Notes under the pieces: generated by a model
Told to the model about the DNA's origin: nothing
What the model saw: the letters and a program-made list of their open reading frames with translations, nothing else
Databases searched by the model: none
Made by a program: the position numbers and the translations under genes
In this document: one piece after another, positions 9,729 through 33,958 of the stretch
Layout: each line of letters starts with the position of its first letter
Position numbering within the stretch: the stretch's first letter is position 1
NCBI GenBank assembly: GCA_905182195.1
Contig: CAJJAW010000005.1
Coordinates: forward strand, 372,001-436,000
DNA from: Alphaproteobacteria bacterium UBA4588
GTDB taxonomy: Bacteria > Pseudomonadota > Alphaproteobacteria > Rhodobacterales > Rhodobacteraceae
Length of the DNA stretch: 64,000 nucleotides
Reading direction: 5' to 3'

Positions 9729-9845
9729 GGCCGCGGTCGTTGCTTCAAGTTTATGGTGCCGCTCAAGATTGGATCAATGTCAGGTATTGGGTTCACCTTA
9801 CGCAGTGATCGGCCTATATTGAGAAAAATTTCGTTGGAGCAGAGC

Positions 9846-10877: not shown

Positions 10878-10936
10878 AGCCGCACGCAGAATAGTTATCC
10901 GTTTTGAATGTACCCAATTGAGAGTAAAGAGTCCCT

Positions 10937-13322: not shown

Positions 13323-13340
13323 TAAAGATGAGAGCTTATT

Positions 13341-17100: not shown

Positions 17101-17253
17101 GCCTTTGACCCCAATCCACTGCAACCTACACTAAACAAAGCACCGATCTTGCGATACCGGAAACTCACCAGGAACACATAGAGCCTATGCGACCCGCAGG
17201 CCATAGAATTATAAGCCTTGGCGCAGGCGTGCGTTATCTTGTAGGGACACGCG

Positions 17254-18420: not shown

Positions 18421-18469
18421 AGTATTCTCCTAGCTCGATGAACTTATTTCTTCATCGCTAATAACGTGA

Positions 18470-19767: not shown

Positions 19768-20550
19768 TTGACAAAACTTCGAGCCACTACAGAAGCAGAT
19801 AGACGTTTGCTAGAAGATACTATCCGGGCGTTACGAGGTAACCTCGAGGTTGCAACCGCTGACACCGCACAAAATCTAGAAAATATCCGAGCGGCTCATG
19901 AAGGGAACCGGCGGGAATCAGAAGGAAACATTCAAGCTCTTAGAGAAAACATGGAGCAGTTTCGTAATGATTATGAAGAAAAACTTGATAATGAACGTGC
20001 CGTTTACGAGGGGGCAAAAAGAGAGTCCGAGGCTAACGTCCAAGCCCTGCGAAACACTATGGAGCAACTTCGTAATGATTATGAAGAAAAACTCGATAAT
20101 GAACGTGCCTCAAACGAAGGAGCAAAGCGGGAGGCAGAAAGCAACGTTCAAGCGCTACGCGATACTATGGAACACATGCGTAATGATTATGAAGAAAAAC
20201 TCGATAATGAACGAGCTGGTCACGAAACAGCTCAACGAGATTCAGAGTTAAATATTCAAGCTCTTAGAGATACTATGGAGAGACTACGTAATGATAATGA
20301 AGAAAAATTTGATCTAGAACGAGCCGAAAACGCTTCGAGTCGCAGAGATTCTGAAACGAGTATCCAGGCTCTTAGAGATACTATGGAACACATGCGCAAC
20401 GACTACGAAGAGAAACTTGACCGAGATCGCGCCACCCATGACACCTCACAAAGAGAAGCAGAATCCAATGTCAAAGCTCTTCGGGAAACTATGGATGCTA
20501 TAAGAAGTGACTACAAAAATAACTTTGATATTAAAAATAATGAAAAGTAA
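19768..20550 (+). CDS. Acidic coiled-coil protein of 36-residue tandem repeats
   Basis: No family is recognised. About six copies of a 36-residue unit make up most of the 260 residues; each has the pattern ALRDTMEHMRNDYEEKLD followed by ERA and a variable seven residues. Heptad spacing of hydrophobic residues and high Glu/Arg/Lys/Asp content predict one long alpha-helical coiled coil. There is no signal peptide or membrane span. The start is a TTG at 19768 after GAAGATGAG; upstream in-frame residues back to the stop at 19741 also look like the protein, so the 5' end may be damaged. A GAF-cyclase gene follows 59 bases later. Confidence 0.7.
   Translation: MTKLRATTEADRRLLEDTIRALRGNLEVATADTAQNLENIRAAHEGNRRESEGNIQALRENMEQFRNDYEEKLDNERAVYEGAKRESEANVQALRNTMEQLRNDYEEKLDNERASNEGAKREAESNVQALRDTMEHMRNDYEEKLDNERAGHETAQRDSELNIQALRDTMERLRNDNEEKFDLERAENASSRRDSETSIQALRDTMEHMRNDYEEKLDRDRATHDTSQREAESNVKALRETMDAIRSDYKNNFDIKNNEK
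19895..20520 (+). repeat. Tandem 108-bp repeats in the coiled-coil gene
   Basis: The motif CGTAATGATTATGAAGAAAA recurs with only a few changes at about 19964, 20072, 20180, 20288 and 20396, exactly 108 bases apart. The copies keep both the DNA and the protein repeat, which suggests recent or ongoing expansion by recombination or slippage. Confidence 0.85.
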
Positions 20551-20609
20551 CCAAATCATTGAATTAATAATATAAATGGTCATTCAAACGAATAAAAGGA
20601 TTACGAAGA

Positions 20610-22892
20610 ATGAATGCTCCGGCTGATAAAAGAGCACCAACTAAGCCGCCACCTAAACGTGGCGCAAAGTCAAAGCCAATAGATATCGCAAGTGATCTAT
20701 CGCGTCTGGGCTCATTTGATGAGATTCTAGAGTATTTAATCACACATGTAACAAAAACTATCCAAGCAGACCGAGGAAGTTTGTTTTTGCATGACCCGGT
20801 AGCCCATCAATTATATACACGAGTAGCCTTGGGTAATTTGTCCCGGGAAATTAGAATTGACGAACAATCAGGGGTCGCTGGATGGGTTTTTAAAAATGGC
20901 GAAGCAGCAATTGTAAATGATCCTTACAACGATGAACGTTTTAATAAAGAAGTCGATGAAAGAACCGGCTTCAAAACGGATAGCCTAGCCTGTGTACCTA
21001 TTTTCACTTTTGGTGAAACTCCAATAGGCGTGCTGCAAGTTTTGAACAAAACGGATAGCAAGTTTTCTGAGAAAGACATTGATGCGATCAAACTCGTAGC
21101 ATCTCAATGTGCGTCGACGCTCAACACCTATGCTCTTACTGAGCGAATGGAAACGCAGAAACGTCGTGAAGCAGAATTCATGACATTGGTTTCCAAATTG
21201 ACGACTGAATTAGATCTATCACGTCTCTTAAATCATGTAGTTGATGCTGCAACCGAGATGCTTAATTGTGAACGGGCCACCGTCTTTCTAAACGACGAAA
21301 AAACTGATGAACTTTTTTCGATGGTCGGCGCTGGATTAGGGGCCTTGGAAATTAGGCTCCCTAATAGTGCAGGTATATCCGGGGCAGTTTTCCAATCTGG
21401 CGAAAATGTTAATATTCCTCATGCATACGCAGACCTCCGCTTCAACCCAGGTTTTGATAAGCAAACAGGGTTTTTCACTAGATCAGTATTATGCGTCCCC
21501 ATCCTAAATAAACATGGCAAGAGGATAGGAGTAACCCAAGCGCTAAATAAAATTGGTGGGTCTTTTACAGAAGAAGATGAAAGCCGTATTCAAGCTTTCA
21601 CGGCGCAAATTTCAGTAGGCTTAGAGAACGCTAAAATGTTCAACGATATGCAAGCTGTGAAAAATTATAACGAAGCGATGCTTCAAAGCATGTCTAATGG
21701 TGTAATTACCGTTGATGAAACAGGTAATTTAAAGAGCTTAAATAAATCAGCTGAAAATATAATAAAAATTATGGCTGAAGAAAATTTAGGAAAACCATTA
21801 GCCGAAATTTTTGATGAAAAAAACCAATGGCTTGTTGAAGCAATAACTAAAGTCCGAGAAACTGGGGCAACAGAAAATTTGGAAGACGCTAACCTTTATA
21901 CGGGTGAAGGAAAGCTAGTATCAGCGAATATAGCATTACAACCGATGATATCTGGTGAAGGAGATACTATAGGTGCGCTAATGCTAGTTGAAGATATTTC
22001 TAGCGAAAAACGTGTAAGGTCAACCATGTCGCGTTACATGGACCCGCAGCTTGCCAAACAACTGCTCGAAGAAGGTGACGGCCAAGCCATGCTTGGTGGA
22101 CAAGCAGCGGAAGCAACCGTTCTGTTTACTGATATTAGAAGTTTCACAACAATTGCGGAATCGCTAGGGCCGCAAGCAACGGTCTCAATGCTAAATGAAT
22201 ATTTTGAGATAATGGTTGCTTGTGTAACTGATGCTGGAGGAATGCTGGATAAATTTATTGGCGATGCATTAATGGCTGGGTTTGGGGTCCCCTTACCTAC
22301 TGACGATGCCCCAGACGCGGCAGTTAAATCTGCCATTTCAATGATATCTCAACTCCGCGTCTGGAACGCGGCAAGAATTGCCGTCGATAAACCTGCTGTG
22401 AATATGGGTGTTGGTATAAATACCGATACTGTTGTCACCGGTAATATTGGCTCTTCTAAACGCATGGATTTCACAATGATAGGTGATGGCGTAAACTTGG
22501 CCGCTAGGTTAGAAGGAAGTTGTAAAACATACGGCGCACAAATTATCATTTCTGACTATACTAAAAGCAAGCTTAAAGGAATTTATGCTCTAAGAGAGTT
22601 AGATAAAATAGTCGTAAAAGGGAAAACAGAGCCAGTATCTATTTCTGAAGTTTTGGACTTCCACGATGATGAAACGTTTCCGGCTCGCATGGACGTGGTG
22701 GGTCATTTTTCAGAAGGGCTTAATCACTATCGTTCTACAGATTTTGATGCCGCAATTAAATCGTTTTCAGCTGCCTTGGAAGCAAATGCTAACGATGTTC
22801 CCAGTCAGTTGTATATTGAACGCTGCAACTTATTCAAGGACACTCCCCCGCCACCAGGCTGGAATGGTGAGTGGGTAATGACCGAAAAATGA
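20610..22892 (+). CDS. Adenylate cyclase with two GAF domains and a PAS domain
   Basis: A 760-residue soluble class III cyclase. Order: basic Pro/Lys-rich tail (1-25), GAF1 (about 38-175), GAF2 (about 205-342), PAS-like (about 353-470), catalytic domain (about 497-685), and a helical TPR-like tail ending PPPPGWNGEWVMTEK, a tail common to this cyclase group. Metal-binding Asp residues are D508 (LFTDIRSF) and D552 (FIGDALMAGFG). K548 and D620 (SKRMDFTMIGDG) are the pair that selects ATP, and N629 and R633 bind the transition state, so all catalytic residues are present and cAMP is the predicted product. Ligand of the GAF domains is unknown. AAGGA precedes the ATG. Confidence 0.93.
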   Translation: MNAPADKRAPTKPPPKRGAKSKPIDIASDLSRLGSFDEILEYLITHVTKTIQADRGSLFLHDPVAHQLYTRVALGNLSREIRIDEQSGVAGWVFKNGEAAIVNDPYNDERFNKEVDERTGFKTDSLACVPIFTFGETPIGVLQVLNKTDSKFSEKDIDAIKLVASQCASTLNTYALTERMETQKRREAEFMTLVSKLTTELDLSRLLNHVVDAATEMLNCERATVFLNDEKTDELFSMVGAGLGALEIRLPNSAGISGAVFQSGENVNIPHAYADLRFNPGFDKQTGFFTRSVLCVPILNKHGKRIGVTQALNKIGGSFTEEDESRIQAFTAQISVGLENAKMFNDMQAVKNYNEAMLQSMSNGVITVDETGNLKSLNKSAENIIKIMAEENLGKPLAEIFDEKNQWLVEAITKVRETGATENLEDANLYTGEGKLVSANIALQPMISGEGDTIGALMLVEDISSEKRVRSTMSRYMDPQLAKQLLEEGDGQAMLGGQAAEATVLFTDIRSFTTIAESLGPQATVSMLNEYFEIMVACVTDAGGMLDKFIGDALMAGFGVPLPTDDAPDAAVKSAISMISQLRVWNAARIAVDKPAVNMGVGINTDTVVTGNIGSSKRMDFTMIGDGVNLAARLEGSCKTYGAQIIISDYTKSKLKGIYALRELDKIVVKGKTEPVSISEVLDFHDDETFPARMDVVGHFSEGLNHYRSTDFDAAIKSFSAALEANANDVPSQLYIERCNLFKDTPPPPGWNGEWVMTEK

Positions 22893-22920
22893 TTATAAAA
22901 TAGAAAGAGTAATGACTAAT

Positions 22921-22950
22921 TACCGGATGAAAATTGAGCCCGATCCGGTA
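22921..22950 (+). terminator. Weak terminator-like hairpin after the GAF-cyclase gene
   Basis: An 8-bp perfect stem (TACCGGAT / ATCCGGTA) with a 14-base loop lies 28 bases after the cyclase stop codon. The downstream sequence TAAAATAATATTATTATATT is AT-rich but has no uninterrupted T run, so termination efficiency is doubtful. Confidence 0.35.
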
Positions 22951-23278
22951 TAAAATAATATTATTATATTAATTACTTATCTCACAATAGCTATTTCCAG
23001 TTTATTCTGACAGCTGCGATGGGACTACTTATGCATCCAACTTCAACGAAGGTCATCGCTACATGTTACCACTTTCGCGTTAAAGAATAAAGATAGGAAT
23101 ATAGACAGACAGCAAAAGTTCCCAGAAACACCATAGTAAAAAGTCTTCCAAAACACCTGCACTAACTACACTGGTGTGGTGCTGGAGCTCAACGCAAGTA
23201 AAGTGATGCTTTTACAGTACATGTACCTCTATTAGCTGCGGCAGAGCGTTTGTATGAAGCACTCTTCACCACATACTA

Positions 23279-23461
23279 GGCTGGAGAAAAGGGTATAAGC
23301 CAGCCGGCTAGTGGCGGCCTAGCCTTGTCACAAAAAAGAAAAACTGCACAGGCTCCATCATTACACTAGTGGAGCCGCATTACAGAAAACAGAATTTAAC
23401 AGTATGGTGCAGTAGCTACGGGATGAGGCCTAAAAACTCTTACATGCGCTATTTTTTAGGC
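23279..23461 (+). ncRNA. Candidate structured RNA with four consecutive hairpins
   Basis: Four perfect stems occur in 183 bases: GGCTGG/CCAGCC (23279-23284, 23300-23305), GGCTAG/CTAGCC (23306-23311, 23319-23324), GGCTCCA/TGGAGCC (23351-23357, 23370-23376) and GCCTAAAAA/TTTTTAGGC (23428-23436, 23453-23461). The stems are GC-rich in an AT-rich gap and the first two abut directly. It could be a small RNA or a long leader of the DUF1538 gene. No known family is recognised, and the strand is assumed from the flanking genes. Confidence 0.3.
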
Positions 23462-23616
23462 TTCTGTTATAATATCCTAAGCCGTCCCTAGAAGTTATTT
23501 TTCTAAATTTAGGCAATAAATCGAAATATCATAAGTTTAATAATGTTTTTATACATTGACCTCTGGTACTCTTTTGATCCACTGTTTTAATTAACTAAAA
23601 CTGGGGGAGGGATTTT

Positions 23617-24393
23617 ATGCCAGTAAGATATTCTCAATATCTAAACGCAGCAGCTGTTAGGCATCGTTCTATAAGCTATAATTCTCTGGCCCCAATTGTA
23701 GACGGGGCAAGTCAGAAACCGAGCCGAATACAAATGAACTTCAGCCAAGTGATGGTGCTTTTGGCGCCTTACTGTGGTTTGAGAGTATTTGATCAACTTA
23801 AGGCAGTTGCTCCCCTAGCAGCGTATCTGATGCTTTTTCAATTATTAATTTTACGGCATCCAATAGAGTCAGCAGTTACTCTTTGTTTTGGTTTAGTTGC
23901 TGTTGTGGTCGGGCTTGCAGTATTCATGGAAGGCCTAAAAACTGGATTGATGCCGTTTGGTACCATAATTGGTGATAACTTACCAAAAAAAGCATCAATG
24001 ACCGTAGTCCTTATTGTTATTGGAATTTTAGGGGTTGGTGTTACTTTTGCAGAGCCTGCAATTGGCGCTCTTCAAGCTTTTGGCTCATCCGTAGACGTGA
24101 TGAAAGCTCCTTATTTATATGAGATTTTAAATAATTGGGCCATGCCACTGATACTAATGGTTGGTGCAGGTGTTGGACTTGCTGCGATACTTGGAACTGT
24201 GAGATTTGTCAGAGGTTGGTCGCTTAAGCCAATGATTTATCTCGCCCTTCTCCCTATTTTTGTTTTGACAGGTTACGCATGGCTTGACCCCAACCTCAGA
24301 AGTGTCTTGGGGCTTGCGTGGGATTGTGGAGCAGTTACAACCGGCCCCGTGAACGGTGCCTTTGGTGCTGTCTCTTGGCATTGGTATAGCTAA
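23617..24393 (+). CDS. DUF1538 membrane protein, N-terminal half (frameshifted)
   Basis: First part of a DUF1538 integral membrane protein, a family of unknown function built from two homologous membrane halves. The ATG at 23617 has a very strong ribosome-binding site. About six hydrophobic segments follow an N-terminal tail of about 40 residues. The repeat signature TFAEPAIGALQAFG is present near residue 147 and WDCGAVTTGPV near residue 230. After TTGPV the frame breaks: removing one A at 24352-24353 restores VTVPLVL, the exact counterpart of TTGPVTVPLVLAMG in the second half. The last 12 residues of this frame are therefore artefactual. Joined to the next frame, the product is 578 residues. 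Confidence 0.82.
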   Translation: MPVRYSQYLNAAAVRHRSISYNSLAPIVDGASQKPSRIQMNFSQVMVLLAPYCGLRVFDQLKAVAPLAAYLMLFQLLILRHPIESAVTLCFGLVAVVVGLAVFMEGLKTGLMPFGTIIGDNLPKKASMTVVLIVIGILGVGVTFAEPAIGALQAFGSSVDVMKAPYLYEILNNWAMPLILMVGAGVGLAAILGTVRFVRGWSLKPMIYLALLPIFVLTGYAWLDPNLRSVLGLAWDCGAVTTGPVNGAFGAVSWHWYS

Positions 24394-25354
24394 CGCTGCT
24401 GGAAAAGGTGGGTCTTCACTGTCTGGCTTTGGTGTTGTAACAATGGCCTCACTTTTTCCAATTTTGGCAGTTTTAATTTTAGCAATTTTTGTCTCATTCT
24501 CCATAACACCAGATGAAATTATCGCAGCTGCAAAGATAGCGAGTAATGTTGTTGTAGAACAACCAACTATTTGGGATAAAACTCCCCTTGTTGAAATTGG
24601 CCTGGGTGTAAGAGCAATCCTGCCACTTGTTTTGTTTCTTATGTTTGTCCTTTTTGTTGTCCTTAAGTCAACTTTACCAAATAAAATGATTACTGTTTAC
24701 GGGTTAGCACTGACAATTGTAGGAATGTGCATTTTCAATATCGGTTTAACTTACGGTTTAGGAGCTATTGGTTCACAAACCGGCGGCGTCCTGCCTGCCG
24801 CTTTCATGGATATTCCGGTAAGTGAAAGCTCCCCTATTTTCAACATAGCGACTGGGTTATCCATTGTTATTGGTTTTGCGTTCATACTTGGTTTTGGCGC
24901 GACACTTGCTGAGCCTGCATTAAATGCCCTAGGGTCGACCGTTCAGGATTTAACAAACGGGGCTTTTAAAAAATCAATGCTCATGTACAGCGTTGCTGGG
25001 GGGGTCGCAGTTGGTATTGCACTTGGGGTTAGTAAAGTAGTCCTAGGATTCGACTTAATGAAAGTTTTAATGCCGCTGTATCTACTGGGGATAGTTCTTA
25101 CAGTTCTTTCAACTGAAGAGTTTGTAAATGTTGCATGGGATAGCGCAGGCGTAACGACTGGGCCGGTTACCGTTCCTTTAGTTCTTGCCATGGGCCTTGG
25201 GTTAGGCAATGCTGTGTCAGCGATAGATGGATTTGGCATACTCTCTCTTGCAAGCATATGCCCTATTGTAGCAGTGTTATCGATGGGCCTTGTTATAAAG
25301 TTTATGAACGAAAAAAGTAAAAACAAGATCGTAGTAAGGGAAAATTCATCATGA
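24356..25354 (+). CDS. DUF1538 membrane protein, C-terminal half (continuation after frameshift)
   Basis: Continues the DUF1538 protein in the +1 frame: PLVLSLGIGIANAAGKGG links straight onto the first half. It has about seven hydrophobic segments, the second copy of the family signature (GFGATLAEPALNALG near residue 180) and DSAGVTTGPVTVPLVLAMG near residue 265. No ribosome-binding site precedes its apparent start, so it is unlikely to be translated alone. Its stop overlaps the start of the PII-like gene as ATGA. A transporter role regulated by the PII-like protein is likely from context, but the substrate is unknown. Confidence 0.82.
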   Translation: MPLVLSLGIGIANAAGKGGSSLSGFGVVTMASLFPILAVLILAIFVSFSITPDEIIAAAKIASNVVVEQPTIWDKTPLVEIGLGVRAILPLVLFLMFVLFVVLKSTLPNKMITVYGLALTIVGMCIFNIGLTYGLGAIGSQTGGVLPAAFMDIPVSESSPIFNIATGLSIVIGFAFILGFGATLAEPALNALGSTVQDLTNGAFKKSMLMYSVAGGVAVGIALGVSKVVLGFDLMKVLMPLYLLGIVLTVLSTEEFVNVAWDSAGVTTGPVTVPLVLAMGLGLGNAVSAIDGFGILSLASICPIVAVLSMGLVIKFMNEKSKNKIVVRENSS

Positions 25355-25707
25355 AAGAACGAACTATTACATATCTGACTGATGCCAATCTTATCACTTG
25401 TGTGATCCAAAAAGATCTTGCGGAGCCTGTTCTTGAAGCTGCAAAAAATGCAGGAGCACAAGGCGCAACAATAAGTTATGCTCAGGGTACTGGGGTGCGG
25501 GAAAGAATGGGTTTGTTAGGTGTTACTATTGATGCCCAAAAGGAAGTTATCAGAATAATTGTATCTCGTGAACAGTCTGAGTTGGTATTTGAGACGATGT
25601 ACTTGGCTGGGAATTTAGATGTTCCTGGCAAAGGAATTATGTTCATGAGTGCTCTGGAACGGGTAGCAACTTATATACCTGATAACGTTTTTGAGAAGCT
25701 GGGTTAG
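25351..25707 (+). CDS. PII-family (GlnB-like) regulatory protein
   Basis: A 118-residue protein with the ferredoxin-like fold expected for PII trimers: LITCVIQKDLAEPVLEAAKNAGAQGATI (beta-alpha-beta) followed by a short T-loop with GTGVRERMG, and IRIIVSREQSELVFETMYLAG then VPGKGIMFMSALERV, which matches the PII B- and C-loop region (G-K-I/G-x-I-F). The T-loop lacks the R-G-x-E-Y site, so uridylylation as in GlnB is not expected. It is translationally coupled (ATGA) to the DUF1538 transporter-like gene, which fits PII-like proteins that gate a partner membrane protein in response to nucleotides. Confidence 0.8.
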   Translation: MKERTITYLTDANLITCVIQKDLAEPVLEAAKNAGAQGATISYAQGTGVRERMGLLGVTIDAQKEVIRIIVSREQSELVFETMYLAGNLDVPGKGIMFMSALERVATYIPDNVFEKLG

Positions 25708-25711
25708 GGTT

Positions 25712-26005
25712 ATGGCTGAATACATTCAAATCGGTGCTTTAATTGAAAAAGATAATGGTTTAGACGCCTATGGCGATATTTCAAAGTCAGATGGGGTGAT
25801 ATACGCGCTTTTGGAAACCGGCAGGTCAAACGATTTGTTTTCCGAAAAACAATTTGGTGAGTTTGGTGAAGCAGCGGTACTTACATTGGTTGTTGACGCG
25901 AAGCAAAAAAACCAAGTTCTTGAAGATCTTGCAAAAAACCTAGGGCTTAATGAAAAAGGTGAAGGGTTTGTTTTTGAAGAAACAGCTCTTTTGAAATGTA
26001 GCTAG
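25712..26005 (+). CDS. Small protein following PII-like gene (possible second PII-like)
   Basis: A 97-residue acidic protein starting at the ATG at 25712, 4 bases after the PII-like stop, with AGGG before it. No family is certain. EAAVLTLVVDAKQKNQVLEDLAKNLG followed by GEGFVFEETALL resembles the second half of a PII fold (beta-alpha then G-x-G-x-x-F), so it may be a divergent second PII subunit working with its neighbour on the DUF1538 protein. A longer start at 25691 overlaps the previous gene and has no better signal. Confidence 0.6.
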   Translation: MAEYIQIGALIEKDNGLDAYGDISKSDGVIYALLETGRSNDLFSEKQFGEFGEAAVLTLVVDAKQKNQVLEDLAKNLGLNEKGEGFVFEETALLKCS

Positions 26006-26142
26006 AGCCCCAACCACTGGCCACATTAAGCCTTCAAGCTGGGATATCTAACCCTAATACGCTCAATTGAAAATTACCGAACTCCAATGTTGTGGTAGTA
26101 GCACGCAAGTGTTAGATTTAAAGTTCAAAAGGAGAATTAGTA

Positions 26143-27027
26143 ATGCGCAGTCTTGGGGTGATTTTTTTAGCTGATATTGTTGGGTACTCTAAAATGATGG
26201 CTCAGGATGAGCCTGGCACTTTGGCTAAGCTCCGCGAATTTGCCAGAGACGTAATTGGTCCCTCTCTGAAGAAACACCAAGGCACCATGATTAAATCTCT
26301 TGGAGATGGCTGGCTCATTGAATTTAATAGCGCCACAACAGCTGTTAGCTGCGCTCAGGAATGGCAAAGCATTACAAAAAAAGAAGGTAAAATGAGCCTG
26401 AGGGTTGGGATTCACCTTGGTGATGTTGAGCATGAGGAAGGTCCACCACCAGACGTATATGGCGATACAGTGAACATAGCCGCTCGGCTGGAGTCAATTG
26501 CTGAGACCGGTGATGTGGCTATATCGACATCTACATATTTGTGCCTAGATCAAAACCAGGCAGCGTCTTTCAATAATTGTGGAAAGCAAACTTTAAAGAA
26601 TATTGCAACACCAGTCGAAGTCTGGAGCACAGGAAGGTTAAATGTTGGGTCAAAAGGCATGACACAAGACCGTGACAAGCCAGCGATATCAATCAAACCC
26701 ATTAGTGGTTCAAGCAGCAATGTGGCTGCATTTTGTGACGAATTAACAAACGATTTGGAAAGTTACCTCGGCAAAAAAGACTGGATAGACTCCTTAGTCC
26801 AAAAAAACCCCAGCGACGATGATTACCAAATAACTGGCTCTGTTTCGCCAAATGGGCCAAACTTTGAAGTTGATATGGTTTTGAAAGCACCTGGAGGAAA
26901 AACTTTGTGGTCGGGCAGCACGGCCGGATCATTAAGGCAGATATCACAATTTAGTGATACCGTTGCAGACCAGTTTTCAGCTAAAATTTTCCTAGAAATT
27001 ATGAAAGTCCGGGACAAATATACATAA
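26143..27027 (+). CDS. Class III adenylate/guanylate cyclase with C-terminal TolB/FlgO-like domain
   Basis: A 294-residue cytoplasmic protein. The catalytic domain (1-160) starts right at the N-terminus: D11 (FLADIVGYSKMM) and D55 (KSLGDGWLIEF) are the metal ligands, and VYGDTVNIAARLES carries the Asn and Arg of the active site (N111, R115). After a linker, residues 190-294 resemble the peptide-binding-like domain found after cyclase domains in rhizobial and roseobacter proteins (YQITGSVSPNGPNFEVDMVL and the SDTVADQFSAKI end). AAGGAG precedes the ATG. It lies directly upstream of the Met-rich repeat gene in the same direction, 173 bases apart. Confidence 0.88.
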   Translation: MRSLGVIFLADIVGYSKMMAQDEPGTLAKLREFARDVIGPSLKKHQGTMIKSLGDGWLIEFNSATTAVSCAQEWQSITKKEGKMSLRVGIHLGDVEHEEGPPPDVYGDTVNIAARLESIAETGDVAISTSTYLCLDQNQAASFNNCGKQTLKNIATPVEVWSTGRLNVGSKGMTQDRDKPAISIKPISGSSSNVAAFCDELTNDLESYLGKKDWIDSLVQKNPSDDDYQITGSVSPNGPNFEVDMVLKAPGGKTLWSGSTAGSLRQISQFSDTVADQFSAKIFLEIMKVRDKYT

Positions 27028-27100
27028 TTTAAAATCTAGACGACTTTTTACAATAAGCTCAACTCTGCTTTAGTTTAATAGTTTTATTTGACTCTGAGTT

Positions 27101-27184
27101 TAAGTTTAAATTAAACTTATAATTGGATCCATGTATCCAAAAAGAATCATAATTTAAACTGTATTAATCATAATTTAAACTGTA
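27101..27184 (+). promoter_or_regulatory. Palindrome and direct repeats upstream of the Met-rich repeat gene
   Basis: TAAGTTTAA (27101-27109) and TTAAACTTA (27111-27119) form a perfect 9-bp inverted repeat about one central base. Downstream, a 19-base sequence (AATCATAATTTAAACTGTA) occurs twice, at 27145-27163 and 27166-27184, that is 21 bases or two helical turns apart. The core TTTAAAC is shared by all. This pattern fits binding of a dimeric regulator on one face of the DNA just upstream of the ribosome-binding site (AAGGGAGA) of the gene at 27201. Confidence 0.5.
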
Positions 27185-27200
27185 CTTAAGGGAGACTATT

Positions 27201-28433
27201 ATGTTCGGATATGGAAATACCCCGGCGGATATGACCGGAGGCACAATGGCAAGCATGCCCCCTGATGGGATGGCTAACGTAACCTCTGCAGACATGGGCA
27301 GTATGCCTCCACATGCCATGGAGGGTATGACTGCTGACCATATGGGCAATATGCCTCCTGACGCCATGGGCGGTATGACTGCTGACCACATGGGAGCAAT
27401 GCCTCATGACGCCATGGGCGGTTGTACATCTGGGCACATGGACGCGTGTCCACCCGATGCTATGGGCGGTATGAGCGCTGGGCACATGTCTAATATGCCT
27501 CCCGATGCCATGAGCGGTATGAGCGGTGACATGATGGGCAATATGCCTCCACATGCCATGGAGGGTATGACTGCTGACCATATGGGCAATATGCCTCCTG
27601 ACGCCATGGGCGGTATGACTGCTGACCACATGGAAGCAATGCCTCATGACGCCATGGGCGGTTGTACATCTGGGCACATGGACGCGTGTCCACCCGATGC
27701 TATGGGCGGTATGAGCGCTGGGCACATGTCTAATATGCCTCCCGATGCCATGAGCGGTATGAGCGGTGACATGATGGGCAGTATGCCTCCACATGCCATG
27801 GAGGGTATGTCTGCTGACCATATGGGAAATATGCCTCCTGACGCGATGGGCGGTATGACTGCTGACCATATGGGCAATATGCCTCCTGACGCCATGGGCG
27901 GTATGCCTCCAGGTATGATGGACGCCATGCCTCCCGGAGCCATGGGCGGCATGGATATGAGCATGCTTAGCCAACTTCCACCTGAAGTTATGGCCGAGTT
28001 GGGCGACGTCGATTGGGCTAGCGTACCACCCGAGGCTATGGAAGCAGGTATGGGAGCCTTTATGGACGGTATGGCTAATGGCATGAGCCCAGCGGACGCC
28101 ATGGATGCAGGTATGGCAGCAGGTGAGGCAGCTATGCCTCCAGGTGAAATGGGCAATATGAATGCTGACACGATGGGCAATATGCCTCCAGAAGCCATGG
28201 GCAGCATGAATGCTGATATGATGGGTAATATGCCTCCCGATGCCATGGGCGGCATGACCGCTGACCACATGGGCAATATGCCTCCACATGCCATGGAGGG
28301 TATGACTGCTGACCATATGGGCAATATGCCTCCTGACGCCATGGGCGGTATGGACGCAGGAATGATGTCGCACATGCCAGCTGACGCAATGGGCGGTATG
28401 AGCCCTGATCATGATGGGCAATATGCCTCCTGA
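27201..28433 (+). CDS. Met-rich tandem-repeat protein, first segment
   Basis: A 410-residue protein made mostly of 16-residue units of the form MPPDAMGGMTADHMGN, with variants in which Met is replaced by Cys (GGCTSGHMDACPPDAMGG) and His or Asp is common. Only residues about 255-310 leave the pattern (LSQLPPEVMAELGDVDWASV). No signal peptide, membrane span or known domain. The Met/His/Cys/Asp array resembles soft-metal (copper or silver) binding repeats. The ATG has AAGGGAGA at the right distance. Near 28410 an extra base puts the repeats out of frame and ends this segment in DGQYAS. The gene lies between a cyclase and a type I secretion transporter, so it is a candidate cargo. Confidence 0.75.
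   Translation: MFGYGNTPADMTGGTMASMPPDGMANVTSADMGSMPPHAMEGMTADHMGNMPPDAMGGMTADHMGAMPHDAMGGCTSGHMDACPPDAMGGMSAGHMSNMPPDAMSGMSGDMMGNMPPHAMEGMTADHMGNMPPDAMGGMTADHMEAMPHDAMGGCTSGHMDACPPDAMGGMSAGHMSNMPPDAMSGMSGDMMGSMPPHAMEGMSADHMGNMPPDAMGGMTADHMGNMPPDAMGGMPPGMMDAMPPGAMGGMDMSMLSQLPPEVMAELGDVDWASVPPEAMEAGMGAFMDGMANGMSPADAMDAGMAAGEAAMPPGEMGNMNADTMGNMPPEAMGSMNADMMGNMPPDAMGGMTADHMGNMPPHAMEGMTADHMGNMPPDAMGGMDAGMMSHMPADAMGGMSPDHDGQYAS
27301..27780 (+). repeat. Recent 240-bp tandem duplication in the Met-rich gene
   Basis: Bases 27301-27540 and 27541-27780 are near-identical by direct comparison: I find two differences (first base G versus A, and 27394 G versus the A at 27634). Each copy holds five 16-residue units, including one Cys-containing pair. 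A third, partial copy begins at 27781 and diverges after about 60 bases. Confidence 0.92.
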
Positions 28434-28695
28434 CGCTATGGGCGGTATGAATGCTGATATGATGGGCAATATGCCTCCCGACGCAATGGGCGGCTGTACC
28501 TCTGATATGATGGAAGCTATGCCAGCTGATGCAATGGGCGGTATGTCCCCAGATATGATGGAAGCTATGCCAGCTGACGCTATGGGCGGTATGGACGCAG
28601 GAATGATGTCGCACATGCCAGCTGACGCAATGGGCGGTATGAATGCTGATATGATGGGCAATATGCCTCCCGACGCAATGGGCGGTATGAGCTGA
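28411..28695 (+). CDS. Met-rich tandem-repeat protein, second segment (after frameshift)
   Basis: 94 codons that continue the same 16-residue repeat in the +1 frame, beginning MMGNMPPDAMGGM. The apparent start has no ribosome-binding site. The natural reading is that the segment belongs to the preceding protein: deleting the C at 28410 joins SPD to MMGN in register with the repeat. It ends where GGTATGAGC is followed by TGA, because two bases of an expected GCGC are missing. Confidence 0.65.
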   Translation: MMGNMPPDAMGGMNADMMGNMPPDAMGGCTSDMMEAMPADAMGGMSPDMMEAMPADAMGGMDAGMMSHMPADAMGGMNADMMGNMPPDAMGGMS

Positions 28696-28696
28696 C

Positions 28697-29257
28697 ATGA
28701 TGGGCAATATGCCTCCTGACGCCATGGGCGGTTGTACCGCTGACCACATGGGAGCGTGTCCACCAGATGCAATGGGCGGTATGACTGCTGACCATATGGG
28801 CAATATGCCTCCTGACGCCATGGGCGGTATGGATGCTGATATGATGGCAAACATGCCAGCTGACGCTATGGGTGGTATGACCGGTGATCACATGAGCTCG
28901 TGTCCACCAGACGCAATGGGCGGTATGACTGCTGATCACATGGGATCAATGCCGCCTGACGTAATGGGCGGTATGAGTTCAGCTCAGACGGACGCTGTGC
29001 CGGCTGGAGCAATGGACGATGGTGGAATGGGGGCAATGGGCTCCTCATTTGCAGCAGATACCGCCGGTGGAATGCCTGGTGGTAGTCCAATGGATGCCAT
29101 GGACGGCGCTCTTAGCGCGGGAATGGATTCAGCCGCTAGCCAGGGAGCGCCTATGGATGTTGCTGGGATGGCGGCTGATCCTGGTCAAGGTACTGTGACT
29201 GATGATCCCGGTGCCCAAACAACAGAAGACCCAAGCTTAGATACTGGCGGCGGTTAA
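28697..29257 (+). CDS. Met-rich tandem-repeat protein, C-terminal segment (after second frameshift)
   Basis: 186 codons: residues 1-95 continue the 16-residue repeats (with Cys variants such as GGCTADHMGACPPDAMGG), then a non-repetitive tail rich in Gly, Ala, Met and Asp ends in DDPGAQTTEDPSLDTGGG. The acidic, glycine-ended tail with no RTX nonapeptides could carry a C-terminal export signal, as type I substrates do, but this is inference. Start ATG lies one base after the previous stop; the true gene probably runs through from 27201, giving roughly 690 residues. A strong terminator follows. Confidence 0.65.
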   Translation: MMGNMPPDAMGGCTADHMGACPPDAMGGMTADHMGNMPPDAMGGMDADMMANMPADAMGGMTGDHMSSCPPDAMGGMTADHMGSMPPDVMGGMSSAQTDAVPAGAMDDGGMGAMGSSFAADTAGGMPGGSPMDAMDGALSAGMDSAASQGAPMDVAGMAADPGQGTVTDDPGAQTTEDPSLDTGGG

Positions 29258-29298
29258 TTTTTAGCACAATAGCAAAAAAGTAGCCTAATTGAACTTAT

Positions 29299-29335
29299 GA
29301 GGATTACGGTTGAAAAACCGTAATCCTCTTTCTTT
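29299..29335 (+). terminator. Rho-independent terminator of the Met-rich repeat gene
   Basis: GAGGATTACGG (29299-29309) pairs perfectly with CCGTAATCCTC (29318-29328) around an 8-base loop and is followed by TTTCTTT. It lies 42 bases after the stop codon and separates this gene from the ABC transporter gene, which therefore needs its own promoter or read-through. Confidence 0.88.
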
Positions 29336-29509
29336 AAAAAAATACTTTAATTATACCTCATATTCCATATGATAATTTTTAGGTGAAGGTTTAAAAGGCT
29401 AGTTCTCGTATATGAAAAACTCGCAATACATTAGAAAAAATTATTTTCACCATTTAATTTTAACTAGAAAATTTTTTGGGAATAACCCTAATCATAGGGA
29501 TTTCAGACG

Positions 29510-31648
29510 ATGAACACAAAGACACTTAGGTCTTTATCTCTGGGGGCGACCGCCCTCGCCCGACAGTTTGGGGTCAGAATTACTGTTGAGCAGTTAGAAA
29601 AAAAGATTTCACAAGGTGAAATTTCATCCGAGAAAGAATTAAAAAATACCCTTAAGGACCAAGGGATAAAAGTTCAGCGCTTGAAGCCAAGTTTAAAAAC
29701 TTTGACGGATCGTTTATACTATTTTCCGTGTGTAGCGCTCATGCGCGACGGAACAGCCAGAATAATAATTAGCTGCAAGCCAAATACGGATCATGTAGTT
29801 GAGTTTCAATTACTAGATCCATTGGATCCAACCAATAAAATTAATGTTGAAAATGAGGCAGAGTTCAAACGTAATTGGGGTGGATCTGTTTATCTCATTT
29901 CAAGCGAAACGGGTATTGCCTCACAGGATCGTACTTTTGACTGGACCTGGTTCATCCCTGAACTGTACCGTTTTAAAGGTTTGCTAGGGCTCACATTTAT
30001 TGCTGCTATGCTAACAGCTTTTTTGGGGCTAGCTCCGATCGTATTTATTCAAATATCTCTAGATAAAGTGTTAAATTATGGAGCAGTATCAACCTTATAT
30101 ATTTTGGTGATGGGTGTTACTGCGGCACTCATTTTTAACGGCATATTGGGCTATGTTCGCGACTACGTAATAAATTTTATTTCTACGTCAATAGAAGCTC
30201 GATTATCCGGAGATATTTTTGACAAAGTGATGGCACTACCAGCCTCAACCTTTCAAACTGGATCACCCTCCGAGTTTGAGGCTCTTCTTCAGGCATCCGG
30301 AAAAATTAAAAACTTTATCTCAACACAAGTCTTAAAGACAATTTTTGATGCGACCAACATTCTAGTATTTCTTCCTGTCCTTTTTGGTTATAGCCCCATT
30401 CTCGCTCTTATAGTAACGTTATTTTCAATGACCATCGGGGCTATTACCCTGTTTGGCAGATGGCGCCAGGCCGAGGCTGGGAAAATTACAGGCCCAATAG
30501 AAGCCTCAAAGCATAGGGTGGCTCAATCCAGCGTTGCGGGTATAGAAACGATAAAGGCATTTTCGCTGGGAGCTTCACAACGACGAGAATGGCGAAAAGT
30601 ATCTGCCAGAAGTATACGCCAAAGTATACAAGGTCAGATTTCCAGCATGATTATCACTAATATAAATGCGACACTGTCCCAACTCATGACGGTTGCGATT
30701 GTTACGACGGGGGTTCTTCTGGTGCTTGGTAGCGGGTTATCAGCAGGAGCTATCATTTCTTGCAATATGCTTGGAGGAAAGCTTGTATCCCCATTCACTG
30801 CATTATTCACGTTTTTCTCAGATTTGAAGGGCTTTAGGTCAACACTTGAATCAGTAGGCACGAGTTGGAATGGTCCAAACGAACGGGTCGGCGTCGGAAA
30901 TGAAATGGTTGTTAAAGGTGAAGTAGTTTGTAAGGACGTTGTTATTAAGTTTGAAAATACAAATGCTCTTAACGGCCTGAATTTGAGTATTCCTGCGAGG
31001 GCAAAAGTGGCTATTGTTGGACCATCGGGTTCCGGAAAGACAACATTTTTGCGTCTCTGCCAGGGTTTTTTGAGACCAAATACGGGTTCAATGGAAATTG
31101 ATGGTCAGAATGTTCGCTATTTAAGTTTAGATAACTATCGTAGCCAGAATACATTGATAGATGGCAATCCGGTCTTCTTTGGCGCAACAATTGAGGAAAA
31201 TTTACGAAAGGTACAGCCAGATATCAGCGAGCGAGAGTTTCAGGAAATACTTCAAATTTCTGGCCTGCAGAAGGTTCTAGATGATCTACCAGAGGGAATC
31301 TCAACCGAAATCAATCAGTTTGGTATGCCATTATCTCAAGGTAACCGTGTAACTTTAGCTTTGGCCCGCGGCCTAATGGCAAGGCCTCGTATACTTTTAA
31401 TTGATGAAGCACTTGCTAGTTTAGATAAATCAAGTCAAATTTCTTTCTTTGAAAACTTCTCTAAAATATCCGAACTAAAAACCGTTTTAATGGCCACCCA
31501 TGATCTTCGTTCAACAGCTGCATTCGAGCAAATTATAGTGCTCGAAAAAGGTGTAGTTGTAGGACAGGGGGCCCACGATGCACTTTTAGACACATGCCCT
31601 CTCTATAAAGAGCTATGGGCTATGGAGCAAAAACTAGCGGGAATGTAA
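29510..31648 (+). CDS. Type I secretion ABC transporter with degenerate C39-like domain
   Basis: A 712-residue fused permease-ATPase of the LapB/HlyB kind. Residues 1-140 resemble the C39 peptidase domain but lack the catalytic Cys (SLGATALARQFGV where peptidases have D-C-G/A), so it should bind rather than cut cargo. Six membrane segments lie between about 160 and 430. The ATPase has Walker A GPSGSGKTT near 504, signature LSQGN near 607 (instead of LSGGQ), Walker B ILLIDEAL near 628, and the H-loop in MATHD. The unusual signature may alter ATP cycling. It pairs with the HlyD-type gene 32 bases downstream. No TolC-like gene is in the window. Confidence 0.88.
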   Translation: MNTKTLRSLSLGATALARQFGVRITVEQLEKKISQGEISSEKELKNTLKDQGIKVQRLKPSLKTLTDRLYYFPCVALMRDGTARIIISCKPNTDHVVEFQLLDPLDPTNKINVENEAEFKRNWGGSVYLISSETGIASQDRTFDWTWFIPELYRFKGLLGLTFIAAMLTAFLGLAPIVFIQISLDKVLNYGAVSTLYILVMGVTAALIFNGILGYVRDYVINFISTSIEARLSGDIFDKVMALPASTFQTGSPSEFEALLQASGKIKNFISTQVLKTIFDATNILVFLPVLFGYSPILALIVTLFSMTIGAITLFGRWRQAEAGKITGPIEASKHRVAQSSVAGIETIKAFSLGASQRREWRKVSARSIRQSIQGQISSMIITNINATLSQLMTVAIVTTGVLLVLGSGLSAGAIISCNMLGGKLVSPFTALFTFFSDLKGFRSTLESVGTSWNGPNERVGVGNEMVVKGEVVCKDVVIKFENTNALNGLNLSIPARAKVAIVGPSGSGKTTFLRLCQGFLRPNTGSMEIDGQNVRYLSLDNYRSQNTLIDGNPVFFGATIEENLRKVQPDISEREFQEILQISGLQKVLDDLPEGISTEINQFGMPLSQGNRVTLALARGLMARPRILLIDEALASLDKSSQISFFENFSKISELKTVLMATHDLRSTAAFEQIIVLEKGVVVGQGAHDALLDTCPLYKELWAMEQKLAGM

Positions 31649-31680
31649 ATCCTATCCGTTGACTTATAAAGAGAAACTGA

Positions 31681-33624
31681 ATGGCTGATAAATCTTATAC
31701 AGACGGTGAGTATATTTTCCGAGAGGGTGAAAGTGCGGCTTATGCATACGTCATCAAATCAGGAGCCGTGGAAATAACAAAACACAGTACTGCAGGTGAG
31801 CAAGTATTAGCTGAGTTAACGGCACCCACTATCTTCGGTGAAATGGCGCTTATCGATGGAAATCCCCGCAGCGCAGGGGCTCGGGCCAATGTGAACACTG
31901 TCGTTAGTGAAGTAACTGCCGAGGCGTTCGTCAAGTATTTAAAACAAAATCCAGAAACCGCCGTCCAGATCATGAAGAATATTTCACAAAACTTGCGGAC
32001 CTCAAATCAATTAGTCGCAAAATATGAGCGCGCAGATACTGGCGACAAAGGCTCTGCCCCAATTCAGGTTTTCACGGAAAACGCATCCCTTGATTTTGAA
32101 ATAGATGACACTGACGCCATATATGAACAGGGCCCCTCAAAGCCTGTTTTAATTTTAGCTCTTACCTTACTAATATTTTTTATTGGGAGCGTCGTATTTG
32201 CCTCCCTTAGTCAGGTGGATACAACAATATCTGCTCGTGGGGAATTTCTGACCGCAACGCCGAACGTCATTGTGGAAGCCAGCGCAAGTTCCGTTGTAAA
32301 AAGTGTGGAAGTGGAGCGCGGTGACACAGTAGTTAAAGGTCAGATTATAGCATACCTAGATGATACTGTTGTGGCCGTAAATTTAAAACAGAACCAAGAA
32401 AAGATTGATAATATCTACCAGTCGCTGGTAGGGCTTCACATGGAGCAGATGCTGAACAATAACATTCAGAAATTCAATTCGAAACTAAAATTAGATAGTT
32501 TTTATGAAGCAACAATTGAAAAGTTAAATTTGCAAAATAGTTCTGAAAAATTTAATAGATTGTATCGAGATACGTTAATGAAAAAAGTATTGGAATATTC
32601 CGAAAAGATTAAGTCTTTTGATTCCAAGCTAGACACAGCTCGAAATGAGTATGAGTCATCAAAAGAACTTTTCGTAATTTCAAAAAAACAAACAGAAATT
32701 AAGGCCCAAATAGCTAGGGCGAAGAGTGAACTGTATGACCGACAGAAGGGTACATTATCGGATATTTTAATAAAGCAGACAGAAATAAAAGCCAAACAGA
32801 CCGCGGTACAGAAAGATCTTTATGAGCGACAGGTCGTATCCCTGTCCCAATATCTATCGTCAAAGGATGCGCTTTTAAACGCAGAAAAATCTCAGTTTAA
32901 CTCCAAAACTTCAACTACAAAGCTTGAGCTAGATTATCTCTCAGCAAAAGATGCGGTGTTAAACGCGGAAAAATCTCAATTTAATGCCAAGGCCGCGATC
33001 CCAAAACTTGAATCTGCAGTCACAACTCAAACAGCTGACAAACAGGCATTTATAGCAAGTTGGGCTTCAAAACTGACCGGTGAAATAACAGCAAAGAACG
33101 AAGAATTAACTCAGCTAAATCAAGAAAAAATTAAACTTTCCAGACTTGTTGATAATATAATTGTGAAGTCGCCAGCTGAAGGTATTGTTTTGGATATACC
33201 GGCAGTTGCCCGAGGTGGTATTGTTAGTGAAGGCGAGCCTATCGTTACCTTAGTCCAGTCTAATCAACCTTTGTTTCTTGAGGTTGATATAGATCCTAAA
33301 AAGATAACTGATATGAAACCTGGTATGAAAGTTTCTGTTAAATTAGATGCCATGCCGTTTCAAGAATTTGGCGGACTGGACGGTGAACTAATATATGTTT
33401 CTAACGACACATTCAATGAATCAGTATCCGGCGATCAAGGTGTGTTTTACAGAGGCAGGGTCAAAGTACAGAGCCTTAAAGAATCTGATATGCCGTCAGA
33501 TTTTAACTTATCTCAAGGGATGATGGCTACAGCCGATATAATGATAGGGCAACGACCTTTGATTTCTTATTTCACATATCCCATCTTGAACGCCTTTGAA
33601 GAGTCATTTAACGAGCCAGAATAA
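31681..33624 (+). CDS. HlyD-type membrane fusion protein with N-terminal cyclic-nucleotide-binding domain
   Basis: 647 residues. Residues 1-110 form a CAP/PKA-type cyclic-nucleotide-binding domain: the phosphate-binding cassette FGEMALIDGNPRSAGARA (52-69) has the key Glu (E54) and Arg (R63). One membrane span follows (about 155-174). The periplasmic part has a first lipoyl half (VKSVEVERGDTVVKGQIIA), a long coiled coil with internal repeats (SKDALLNAEKSQFNSK near 395, SAKDAVLNAEKSQFNAK near 422), the second lipoyl half (VKSPAEGIVLDIPAVARGG) and a beta-barrel. It is the adaptor of a type I secretion system with a cytosolic cNMP sensor. It pairs with the ABC gene upstream. Confidence 0.9.
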   Translation: MADKSYTDGEYIFREGESAAYAYVIKSGAVEITKHSTAGEQVLAELTAPTIFGEMALIDGNPRSAGARANVNTVVSEVTAEAFVKYLKQNPETAVQIMKNISQNLRTSNQLVAKYERADTGDKGSAPIQVFTENASLDFEIDDTDAIYEQGPSKPVLILALTLLIFFIGSVVFASLSQVDTTISARGEFLTATPNVIVEASASSVVKSVEVERGDTVVKGQIIAYLDDTVVAVNLKQNQEKIDNIYQSLVGLHMEQMLNNNIQKFNSKLKLDSFYEATIEKLNLQNSSEKFNRLYRDTLMKKVLEYSEKIKSFDSKLDTARNEYESSKELFVISKKQTEIKAQIARAKSELYDRQKGTLSDILIKQTEIKAKQTAVQKDLYERQVVSLSQYLSSKDALLNAEKSQFNSKTSTTKLELDYLSAKDAVLNAEKSQFNAKAAIPKLESAVTTQTADKQAFIASWASKLTGEITAKNEELTQLNQEKIKLSRLVDNIIVKSPAEGIVLDIPAVARGGIVSEGEPIVTLVQSNQPLFLEVDIDPKKITDMKPGMKVSVKLDAMPFQEFGGLDGELIYVSNDTFNESVSGDQGVFYRGRVKVQSLKESDMPSDFNLSQGMMATADIMIGQRPLISYFTYPILNAFEESFNEPE

Positions 33625-33881: not shown

Positions 33882-33958
33882 TGGTGGCGGTACAGGGACT
33901 CGAACCCCAGACACGCGGATTATGATTCCGCTGCTCTAACCAACTGAGCTATACCGCC
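33882..33958 (-). tRNA. tRNA-Met (anticodon CAT, elongator type)
   Basis: Reading leftwards from 33958 the sequence folds as a full cloverleaf: acceptor GGCGGTA pairing with TACCGCC, D-arm GCTCAGTTGGTTAGAGC, anticodon stem GCGGA/TCCGC with loop ATCATAA (anticodon CAT), T-arm GGTTCGAGTCC, and an encoded CCA at 33882-33884. The G-C first pair and D-arm are those of elongator tRNA-Met rather than initiator. An Ile2 (lysidine) identity cannot be fully excluded. Its 3' end faces the AT-rich secretion-gene block. Confidence 0.95.

Follow-up and report, generated by a model that had tools for sequence, protein, structure and literature searches.

A type I secretion adaptor with a built-in cyclic-nucleotide-binding domain, encoded beside two adenylate cyclases in a Rhodobacteraceae genome

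The DNA analysed here (the window) is a stretch of 64,000 nucleotides from contig CAJJAW010000005.1 of Alphaproteobacteria bacterium UBA4588, a member of the Rhodobacteraceae with a genome of 2.62 Mb in 12 contigs. An original prediction, made from the letters alone, had placed at 19768–33624 a one-strand series of genes for a coiled-coil repeat protein, a GAF-GAF-PAS adenylate cyclase (here AC1), a DUF1538/P-II-like pair, a second class III cyclase (AC2), a Met-rich repeat protein, a type I secretion ATP-binding cassette (ABC) transporter and an HlyD adaptor carrying a cytosolic cyclic nucleotide (cNMP)-binding domain. The list of open reading frames (ORFs) and Pfam searches located every one of these genes on the plus strand, in that order (Table 1). 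The adaptor, a fusion of a cNMP-binding domain to HlyD (cNMP-HlyD), is the subject of this analysis.

Table 1. Features of the gene block and its right border (window positions)
Feature	Position	Strand	Basis
Coiled-coil repeat protein, 108-base tandem repeats	19768..20550	+	ORF; repeat detection
AC1, GAF-GAF-PAS class III adenylate cyclase, CyaB1/CyaB2 type	20610..22892	+	Pfam; 1ykd match
DUF1538 membrane protein, UmpAB cation/proton antiporter family	23617..25354	+	PF07556 in both pieces
P-II-like regulator	25351..25707	+	PF00543, 36.6 bits, cut-off 25
Second small protein, overlapping the P-II-like gene	25691..26005	+	ORF
AC2, stand-alone class III adenylate cyclase	26143..27027	+	PF00211
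Met-rich octad-repeat protein, candidate cargo, three pieces	27201..29257	+	ORFs; repeats; composition
Terminator-like hairpin separating the candidate cargo gene from the exporter genes	29299..29328	+	13-pair stem, T-rich tail
Type I secretion ABC transporter, degenerate C39-like domain	29510..31648	+	PF00664, PF00005, PF03412
HlyD adaptor, N-terminal cytosolic cNMP-binding domain (residues ~4-112)	31681..33624	+	PF00027, PF13437
tRNA-Met, right border of low-GC block	33882..33958	-	tRNA; GC profile

Both halves of the window adaptor were recognized by Pfam, PF00027 at 74.2 bits, above its cut-off, and PF13437 at 50.1 bits (cut-off 22.2). The HlyD type I subfamily model TIGR01843 gave 202.2 bits, narrowly below its cut-off of 208.65, and an adaptor profile of 49 rows (A6) matched PDB entry 8dck at 3e-50. 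The best PDB matches of the adaptor profile include cGMP- and cAMP-dependent kinases and CRP-family regulators. Further fusions were sought in named genomes, for which the best 80 rows were kept, and in other genomes, and 55 fusion rows were aligned. All 55 rows, near-copies included, have R63, S64 and A65 in the phosphate cassette. G53 and E54 are likewise present in 55 of 55, also in rows found without the scan pattern; positions 52–58 are biased by the pattern used to scan the named genomes, which contained G53 and E54, and positions 63–65 are unbiased. The pocket residues remain invariant across adaptors with as little as 26–30% identity to the window protein, and we take the conserved cassette residues to be typical of cAMP or cGMP binders. 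Mean identity to the window adaptor is 57% over the cNMP domain and 56–60% over two conserved HlyD parts, and lower (33–38%) in the linker, the membrane helix and the long middle region.

At least 48 distinct cNMP-HlyD fusions were found, mostly in marine alphaproteobacteria and some in gammaproteobacteria. This count was reached after six near-identical fusions were dropped (54 to 48) and the fragments L101, L102 and L104 were left out; L086, labelled a fusion in an earlier layout, was not scored because no fused ORF passed the script test. From an evenly drawn set of 385 genomes of the class, 14 passed an E-value of 1e-40 in the adaptor search and 11 of these were counted as fusions. For G277 the count is based on two contig ends, and for G358 on the C-terminal part alone; the other three, G131, G307 and G323, are non-fused relatives. 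In an adaptor tree made by a quick method and containing several long branches, 41 of 42 non-fused rows, together with fusions L144 and L146, fall on one side of a branch with support 93, and the remaining 46 fusions and one very long non-fused row fall on the other. Extra cNMP genes were not significantly enriched (11/48 fusions, 2/20 controls). Eight other loci (L105, L106, L108, L109, L114, L128, L131 and L135) hold a different type I exporter family, with one or two ABC genes and a plain HlyD, and have close by a stand-alone cNMP protein of ~114–128 residues; six of the eight also encode a protein of 1145–1175 residues. These stand-alone proteins form a second link between cNMP domains and type I secretion.

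In 17 of the 48 fusions a class III cyclase gene is no more than 10 kb from the adaptor gene, compared to 0 of 41 non-fused exporters (Fisher p 6e-6, uncorrected for kinship). Among loci with at least 8 kb on both sides, the counts are 9 of 17 fusions and 0 of 24 controls (Fisher p 7e-5, likewise uncorrected). The controls were matches of the adaptor search plus the second exporter of the window's own genome, in two sets (0/20 and 0/21). Several of the 41 stretches are short, with lengths between 3.8 kb (L229) and 20 kb; 24 have at least 8 kb on both sides, and three that the tree shows to be near-copies (L204, L207 and L209) were kept. Eight of the first 20 come from the window's genus; the second set, drawn mostly from other genera, is the fairer one. 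Four kinds of cyclase account for the linkage: AC2-type genes (window, L059–L063), AC1 (window, L036, L064), cyclases with a CHASE2 domain (the L037 group, some of whose records bear the titles Pelagibacteraceae and Rickettsiales) and a TPR-cyclase (L085). The adaptor gene and the CHASE2-cyclase gene overlap at the end of the former in L037, L094, L095, L096 and L139; in L097, L099 and L100 the cyclase gene begins 4–7 bases past the adaptor gene. On the adaptor tree, cyclase presence requires three changes (gains or losses) among 25 scored fusions, namely the 17 with a cyclase and eight long-flank loci without one; loci with short flanks enter only if a cyclase was seen.

Whole-genome counts extend this picture. 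Four of 20 genomes of the genus carry a cNMP-HlyD fusion; AC1 occurs in 3 of these 4 and in 0 of the 16 others, and any class III cyclase in 3 of 4 and 3 of 16, respectively. Across the class, AC1 is present in 9 of 11 fusion genomes compared to 34 of 374 others. The window's own genome has only two PF00211 matches, AC1 and AC2, and both lie within ~11 kb of its only cNMP-HlyD, which is closer than expected by chance. It holds two PF00027 domains, one in the adaptor and the other in a stand-alone protein of 115 residues, encoded among small genes at L212 6680–7027. We conclude that the association of cNMP-HlyD exporters with cyclases is real and repeated.

The ABC gene lies directly upstream of the adaptor gene in 47 of the 48 fusions, some ABC genes being cut by contig ends; in the exception, L146, an ABC gene stands just before the adaptor in the layout, yet outside the gap limits used. 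For the window ABC protein, the two best NCBIfam matches are type I secretion ABC models, both below cut-off (TIGR03375, 370.1 bits against 693.1; TIGR01846, 352.3 bits against 725.55). Its N-terminal domain matches the C39 family (PF03412) weakly, and no cysteine occurs in the first 40 aligned residues of 36 of 40 full-length ABC proteins, the window's included. Together, these two features fit the C39-like domain of type I exporters, a domain that has been linked with large RTX cargoes bearing C-terminal signals (review PMC8277102, in its available text). Walker A, the Walker B glutamate and the H-loop histidine are intact in the window protein. By column counts, the Walker B glutamate is replaced by aspartate in 11 of 40 ABC proteins and the H-loop histidine by asparagine in 11 of 40; the ABC protein of L037 (7689–9860) shows both replacements. 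Such changes may mark a slow or regulated ATPase. The gene block holds no TolC-like channel; elsewhere in the genome there is one clear OEP protein (C7) and one marginal match (C1). Linkage to TolC was considered as a special feature of the fusions and dropped, the counts showing no difference (15/48 fusions, 6/20 controls). The genome encodes an ABC exporter with a C39-like domain, an HlyD-type adaptor and a TolC-like channel, each a component of a type I secretion system (T1SS).

The original prediction had also named the Met-rich repeat protein as the cargo. Of 32 fusions with at least 600 bases available before the ABC gene, 24 have a Met/Pro/Gly/Asp-rich ORF in that upstream stretch, compared to 4 of 41 control stretches with such an ORF anywhere on either strand; the eight fusions that lack it include the gammaproteobacterial L072. 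We examined 26 repeat proteins, these 24 together with those of L088 and L089, several of them cut by contig ends and the window's represented by its last piece only. All 26 contain only 0–4 Lys plus Arg residues per protein. An acidic tail free of Lys and Arg and ending in a small or hydrophobic residue is found in 24 of the 26 and in 9 of 521 other ORFs, a contrast that is partly built in by a composition filter favouring Asp. Complete N-termini show no obvious signal peptide by eye, and tails such as DEIV and EVV presumably resemble the C-terminal motif of some T1SS proteins. The tail pattern strengthens the case that the repeat protein would be the cargo. Met richness, in contrast, is not conserved: Met content runs from 0 to 23% in the 26 proteins, versions from the L037 group are Pro/Gly/Asp-rich with 9–13% Met, and the L098 protein has none. 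A role in copper binding through Met/His motifs was considered and is not favoured, since acidity and tail persist among proteins that differ in Met content.

The repeat unit of the window protein is 48 bases, that is, 16 residues or two octads, and its first piece contains 44 octads with hydrophobic residues at positions 1 and 6, compared to a mean of 7.4 in shuffles. The pattern was not seen in the L037 and L093 counterparts, and the first piece matched no Pfam family, PF20080 included, at an E-value of 0.001. The same octad spacing occurs in an ALTTAQ-repeat protein (PF20080) of 1612 residues at L148 14169–19007. The exporter next to it has a non-fused adaptor that the tree places close to the fused family. 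An RTX cargo encoded elsewhere in the window's own genome was rejected, as a search of the whole genome with PF00353 gave no match at an E-value of 0.001. An RTX protein with eight PF00353 stretches does occur in the neighbourhood of the outlying fusion L144.

The active sites of both cyclases had been described as intact, and the signature residues are indeed present in each. In AC1, D508, K548, D552, T622, N629 and R633 are conserved in 12 aligned sequences (R633 in 11, with one X); we take them to be the metal-binding Asp pair, the Lys and Thr/Asp specificity pair, and the active-site Asn and Arg. The corresponding residues of AC2 were read by eye in six sequences, and its orthologues in L059–L063 are 69–73% identical. 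The best PDB match of AC1 is 1ykd, a chain named adenylate cyclase (E-value 3.6e-37, GAF part only), presumably CyaB2. GAF-A has I or L in place of the last residue of the NKFDE motif in all 12 sequences, and GAF-B has the complete motif, also in 12 of 12. This motif is conserved in most characterised cNMP-binding GAF domains (available text of PMC4411481). Since it is complete in GAF-B, AC1 may be an adenylate cyclase that cAMP itself activates. The coiled-coil repeat protein is a probable partner of AC1; in L156, L158 and L161, a gene for a similar protein immediately precedes that of AC1. AC1 also has other company. In L150, L151, L152 and L153 it stands tail to tail with a CHASE2-cyclase, with a TolC-like gene between them in L153, and L150 further has a MotA/ExbB-like and MotB/OmpA-like pair and a metallo-beta-lactamase-fold protein. 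The neighbours of AC1 in L166 (2282–7751) and L156 (10368–14263) are a TolC-like gene, a weak HD-domain protein and a Pro/Gly/Asp-rich protein; in L166 the last of these has 1091 residues with FecR and RTX matches.

DUF1538 is encoded within 10 kb of 10 of the 48 fusions, mostly in the L037 group, and of 0 of the first 20 controls. In the L065–L070 group (L067 is titled SAR116), P-II stands beside AC1 at another contig or place (L160–L164), where DUF1538 is also present in four of five cases, L163 being cut short. The second DUF1538 piece of the window scored 102.6 and 111.8 bits against the UmpA and UmpB models (cut-offs 490 and 500). The only functional report that we found for DUF1538 describes UmpAB as a Na+(Li+, K+)/H+ antiporter (available text of PMC5484666). 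An ion or pH input to cAMP through DUF1538 and P-II is possible. The small ORF that overlaps the P-II-like gene matched no Pfam or NCBIfam family; in L164 a second small P-II-like ORF follows the first.

Two genes of the block do not read as single frames. The predicted DUF1538/P-II pair is there, but DUF1538 is split into two overlapping frames, with the change near 24354–24393; in relatives not cut by a contig end it is a single frame of 565–582 residues. The Met-rich gene is likewise present in three pieces (27201–28433, 28411–28695 and 28697–29257) and not as one ORF, its breaks falling at 28411–28433 and 28685–28700. The breaks in these two genes are either sequencing errors or real. The block probably comprises several transcription units, because ~720 bases separate AC1 from the next gene and because no terminator-like hairpin in the region is stronger than the one between the Met-rich and ABC genes; a single operon is not favoured on the same grounds. 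Terminator-like sites as a whole are not in excess in the region (15, compared to a mean of 13.1 in shuffles), and a promoter scan of the block was uninformative (19 sites, 32.5 in shuffles). A hairpin might be expected in this position if the cell makes more cargo than exporter.

G+C content is 0.40–0.44 over most of the block and 0.44–0.53 in its surroundings, rising to 0.47–0.52 over the Met-rich gene. On the adaptor tree, the Rhodobacteraceae copies fall inside a group of records from other alphaproteobacteria, and the copies from gammaproteobacteria (L071–L074) are likewise nested among alphaproteobacterial ones. This nesting fits horizontal spread, and the type I secretion system of the block was probably acquired horizontally. 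The 20 plasmid records listed of 1448 adaptor matches all begin at residue 108 or later, with no fusion among these 20. Directly to the left of the block, window positions 9753–19405 hold surface polysaccharide genes: NeuB, a UDP-GlcNAc 2-epimerase, Kdo transferases, a cytidylyltransferase and a UDP-sugar dehydrogenase.

On balance, we favour a reading in which the fused adaptor acts as a second-messenger receptor and cAMP binding gates export of the repeat protein. AC1, which could reinforce itself through the putative cAMP site of GAF-B, and AC2 would make cAMP. The nucleotide would bind the adaptor at its N-terminal cNMP domain, on the cytosolic side and beside the ABC transporter, and alter the adaptor–ABC complex so that export is switched, in either direction. 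The acidic, repeat-rich Met-rich protein, with its predicted C-terminal signal, would then leave the cell in a single step, by way of a TolC-like channel whose gene lies outside the block. A broader proposal, that cNMP-HlyD systems are a T1SS class gated directly and post-translationally by cAMP at the adaptor, that cyclases of different kinds were recruited to it repeatedly, that it spread horizontally among ocean bacteria and that it includes the main cAMP receptor of the window's own genome, is put forward tentatively and with slightly more doubt than belief.

Several observations weigh against gating by cAMP. The original prediction had held that the coupling would fail if fusions were scattered without cyclases or repeat proteins. 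This condition applies in part. The ABC gene and the repeat protein do recur with the fusion and the cyclase linkage is real, but in 31 of the 48 fusions, the four gammaproteobacterial ones among them, the DNA examined shows no cyclase, and the same is true of 8 of the 17 fusions with long flanks; a class III cyclase is encoded somewhere in 52 of 54 searched fusion genomes (two of these, G265 and G449, are apparently the same genome). The first control set was a lenient one, as five of its 20 loci are from genus genomes that lack any class III cyclase. CHASE2-cyclases are common (144 of 385 class genomes), and an HlyD gene was found near AC1 in only 1 of 17 loci (L172) from genomes not counted as fusion carriers. 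In L154, L155 and L169, loci chosen by their cyclase, a non-fused exporter stands beside a CHASE2-cyclase; there, the cyclase gene is divergent from and adjoins a second, non-fused ABC–HlyD pair. In the L037 group, too, the neighbourhood of the CHASE2-cyclase includes a plain HlyD–ABC pair, located after P-II. The idea that AC1 or CHASE2-cyclases are as a rule dedicated secretion genes was rejected, given their presence in 43 and 144 of 385 class genomes and the single HlyD gene near AC1. Finally, the cNMP domain of HetC, an ABC exporter with such a domain at its N-terminus, did not respond to cAMP and bound guanosine tetraphosphate (ppGpp), according to the available text of PMC10986499. Since HetC bound ppGpp and was not stabilised by cAMP, it is a real warning for the cAMP reading.

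The HetC result and the many fusions without a nearby cyclase are what would be expected if the adaptor sensed another nucleotide such as ppGpp, with export tied to starvation and the cyclases serving otherwise. We judge this improbable in view of the repeated cyclase linkage, the invariant cassette residues, presumably those of cAMP or cGMP binders, and the kinases and CRP-family regulators among the best PDB matches. It is also conceivable, if unlikely, that one low-GC island holds two unrelated modules: coiled coil, AC1, DUF1538 and P-II for ion signalling, with AC1 outside secretion, and AC2, the Met-rich gene, ABC and adaptor. Gene spacing and the strong hairpin agree with such a division, as do the rarity of type I genes near AC1 in other genomes (1/17), the antiporter function of the DUF1538 pair UmpAB (PMC5484666, available text) and the L160–L164 loci, whose AC1 stands beside P-II with no type I adaptor in the stretch. 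The tracking of the fusion by AC1 in genus and class argues the other way, as does the proximity of DUF1538 to fusions and not to the first controls. Last, the cNMP fold could serve only in assembly or dimerisation, with no bound regulator; such folds presumably can be structural, and the adaptor's ligand is so far predicted only. Pocket residues that stay invariant down to 26–30% identity make this explanation very unlikely.

The usual view places control of type I secretion at gene expression or, in the case of LapA-type adhesins, at the release step. If adaptor gating by cAMP is correct, the nucleotide sensor of the adaptor would make the export complex itself the site of switching and would give cAMP a job in small-genome ocean bacteria. 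As both class III cyclases and one of the two cNMP domains of the genome lie in one block, the circuit is small enough for laboratory rebuilding. The extremely acidic repeat proteins, nearly free of Lys and Arg, are candidate secreted proteins of marine bacteria.

Our search of the open-licence literature found no paper on cNMP-HlyD or a cyclase-linked T1SS. Among described systems, the nearest precedent found is HetC of Nostoc PCC 7120, a peptidase-containing ABC transporter (PCAT) whose N-terminal cNMP domain is needed for function (PMC10986499, available text). Both HetC and the window exporter belong to the C39/type I ABC superfamily and have an N-terminal cNMP-binding domain. HetC, as described there, carries that domain on the ABC protein, has an active C39 protease and has ppGpp as its ligand, whereas the window system carries it on the HlyD adaptor, has an ABC protein without Cys in its first 40 residues and is adjacent to cyclases. 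The window system thus falls outside a HetC-type PCAT, as defined by a cNMP domain on the ABC protein together with the active C39 cysteine. A bacteriocin-type transport-associated family, TIGR03896 (cyc_nuc_ocin), is by its model listing likewise a cNMP-domain protein named for association with an exporter; the window adaptor scored 22 bits against its cut-off of 161.

For the accessory genes, the closest parallels differ in context. AC1 resembles CyaB1/CyaB2 of Anabaena (available text of PMC4411481) in its tandem GAF domains, class III cyclase, NKFDE motif in GAF-B and match to 1ykd, and differs in the missing last motif residue of GAF-A and in its linkage to a secretion island and DUF1538/P-II. 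The window DUF1538 protein shares with UmpAB of Halomonas (available text of PMC5484666) the PF07556 membrane domain; its relatives are, however, one tandem-domain protein and not two subunits, with a P-II partner and cyclases nearby. The window repeats share octads with hydrophobic positions 1 and 6 with ALTTAQ proteins (PF20080), but are Met/Pro/Asp-rich and without a Pfam match. The block as a whole can be set beside the HlyB/HlyD-type T1SS (PMC8277102, available text), with which it shares a degenerate C39-like ABC protein, an HlyD adaptor, a candidate cargo with an acidic C-terminus and TolC-like channels. It differs from these systems in the cNMP domain of the adaptor, a genome without RTX repeats and a cargo candidate with Met/Pro/Gly/Asp-rich repeats. 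We file it as a variant of type I secretion in which the adaptor has a built-in cNMP domain.

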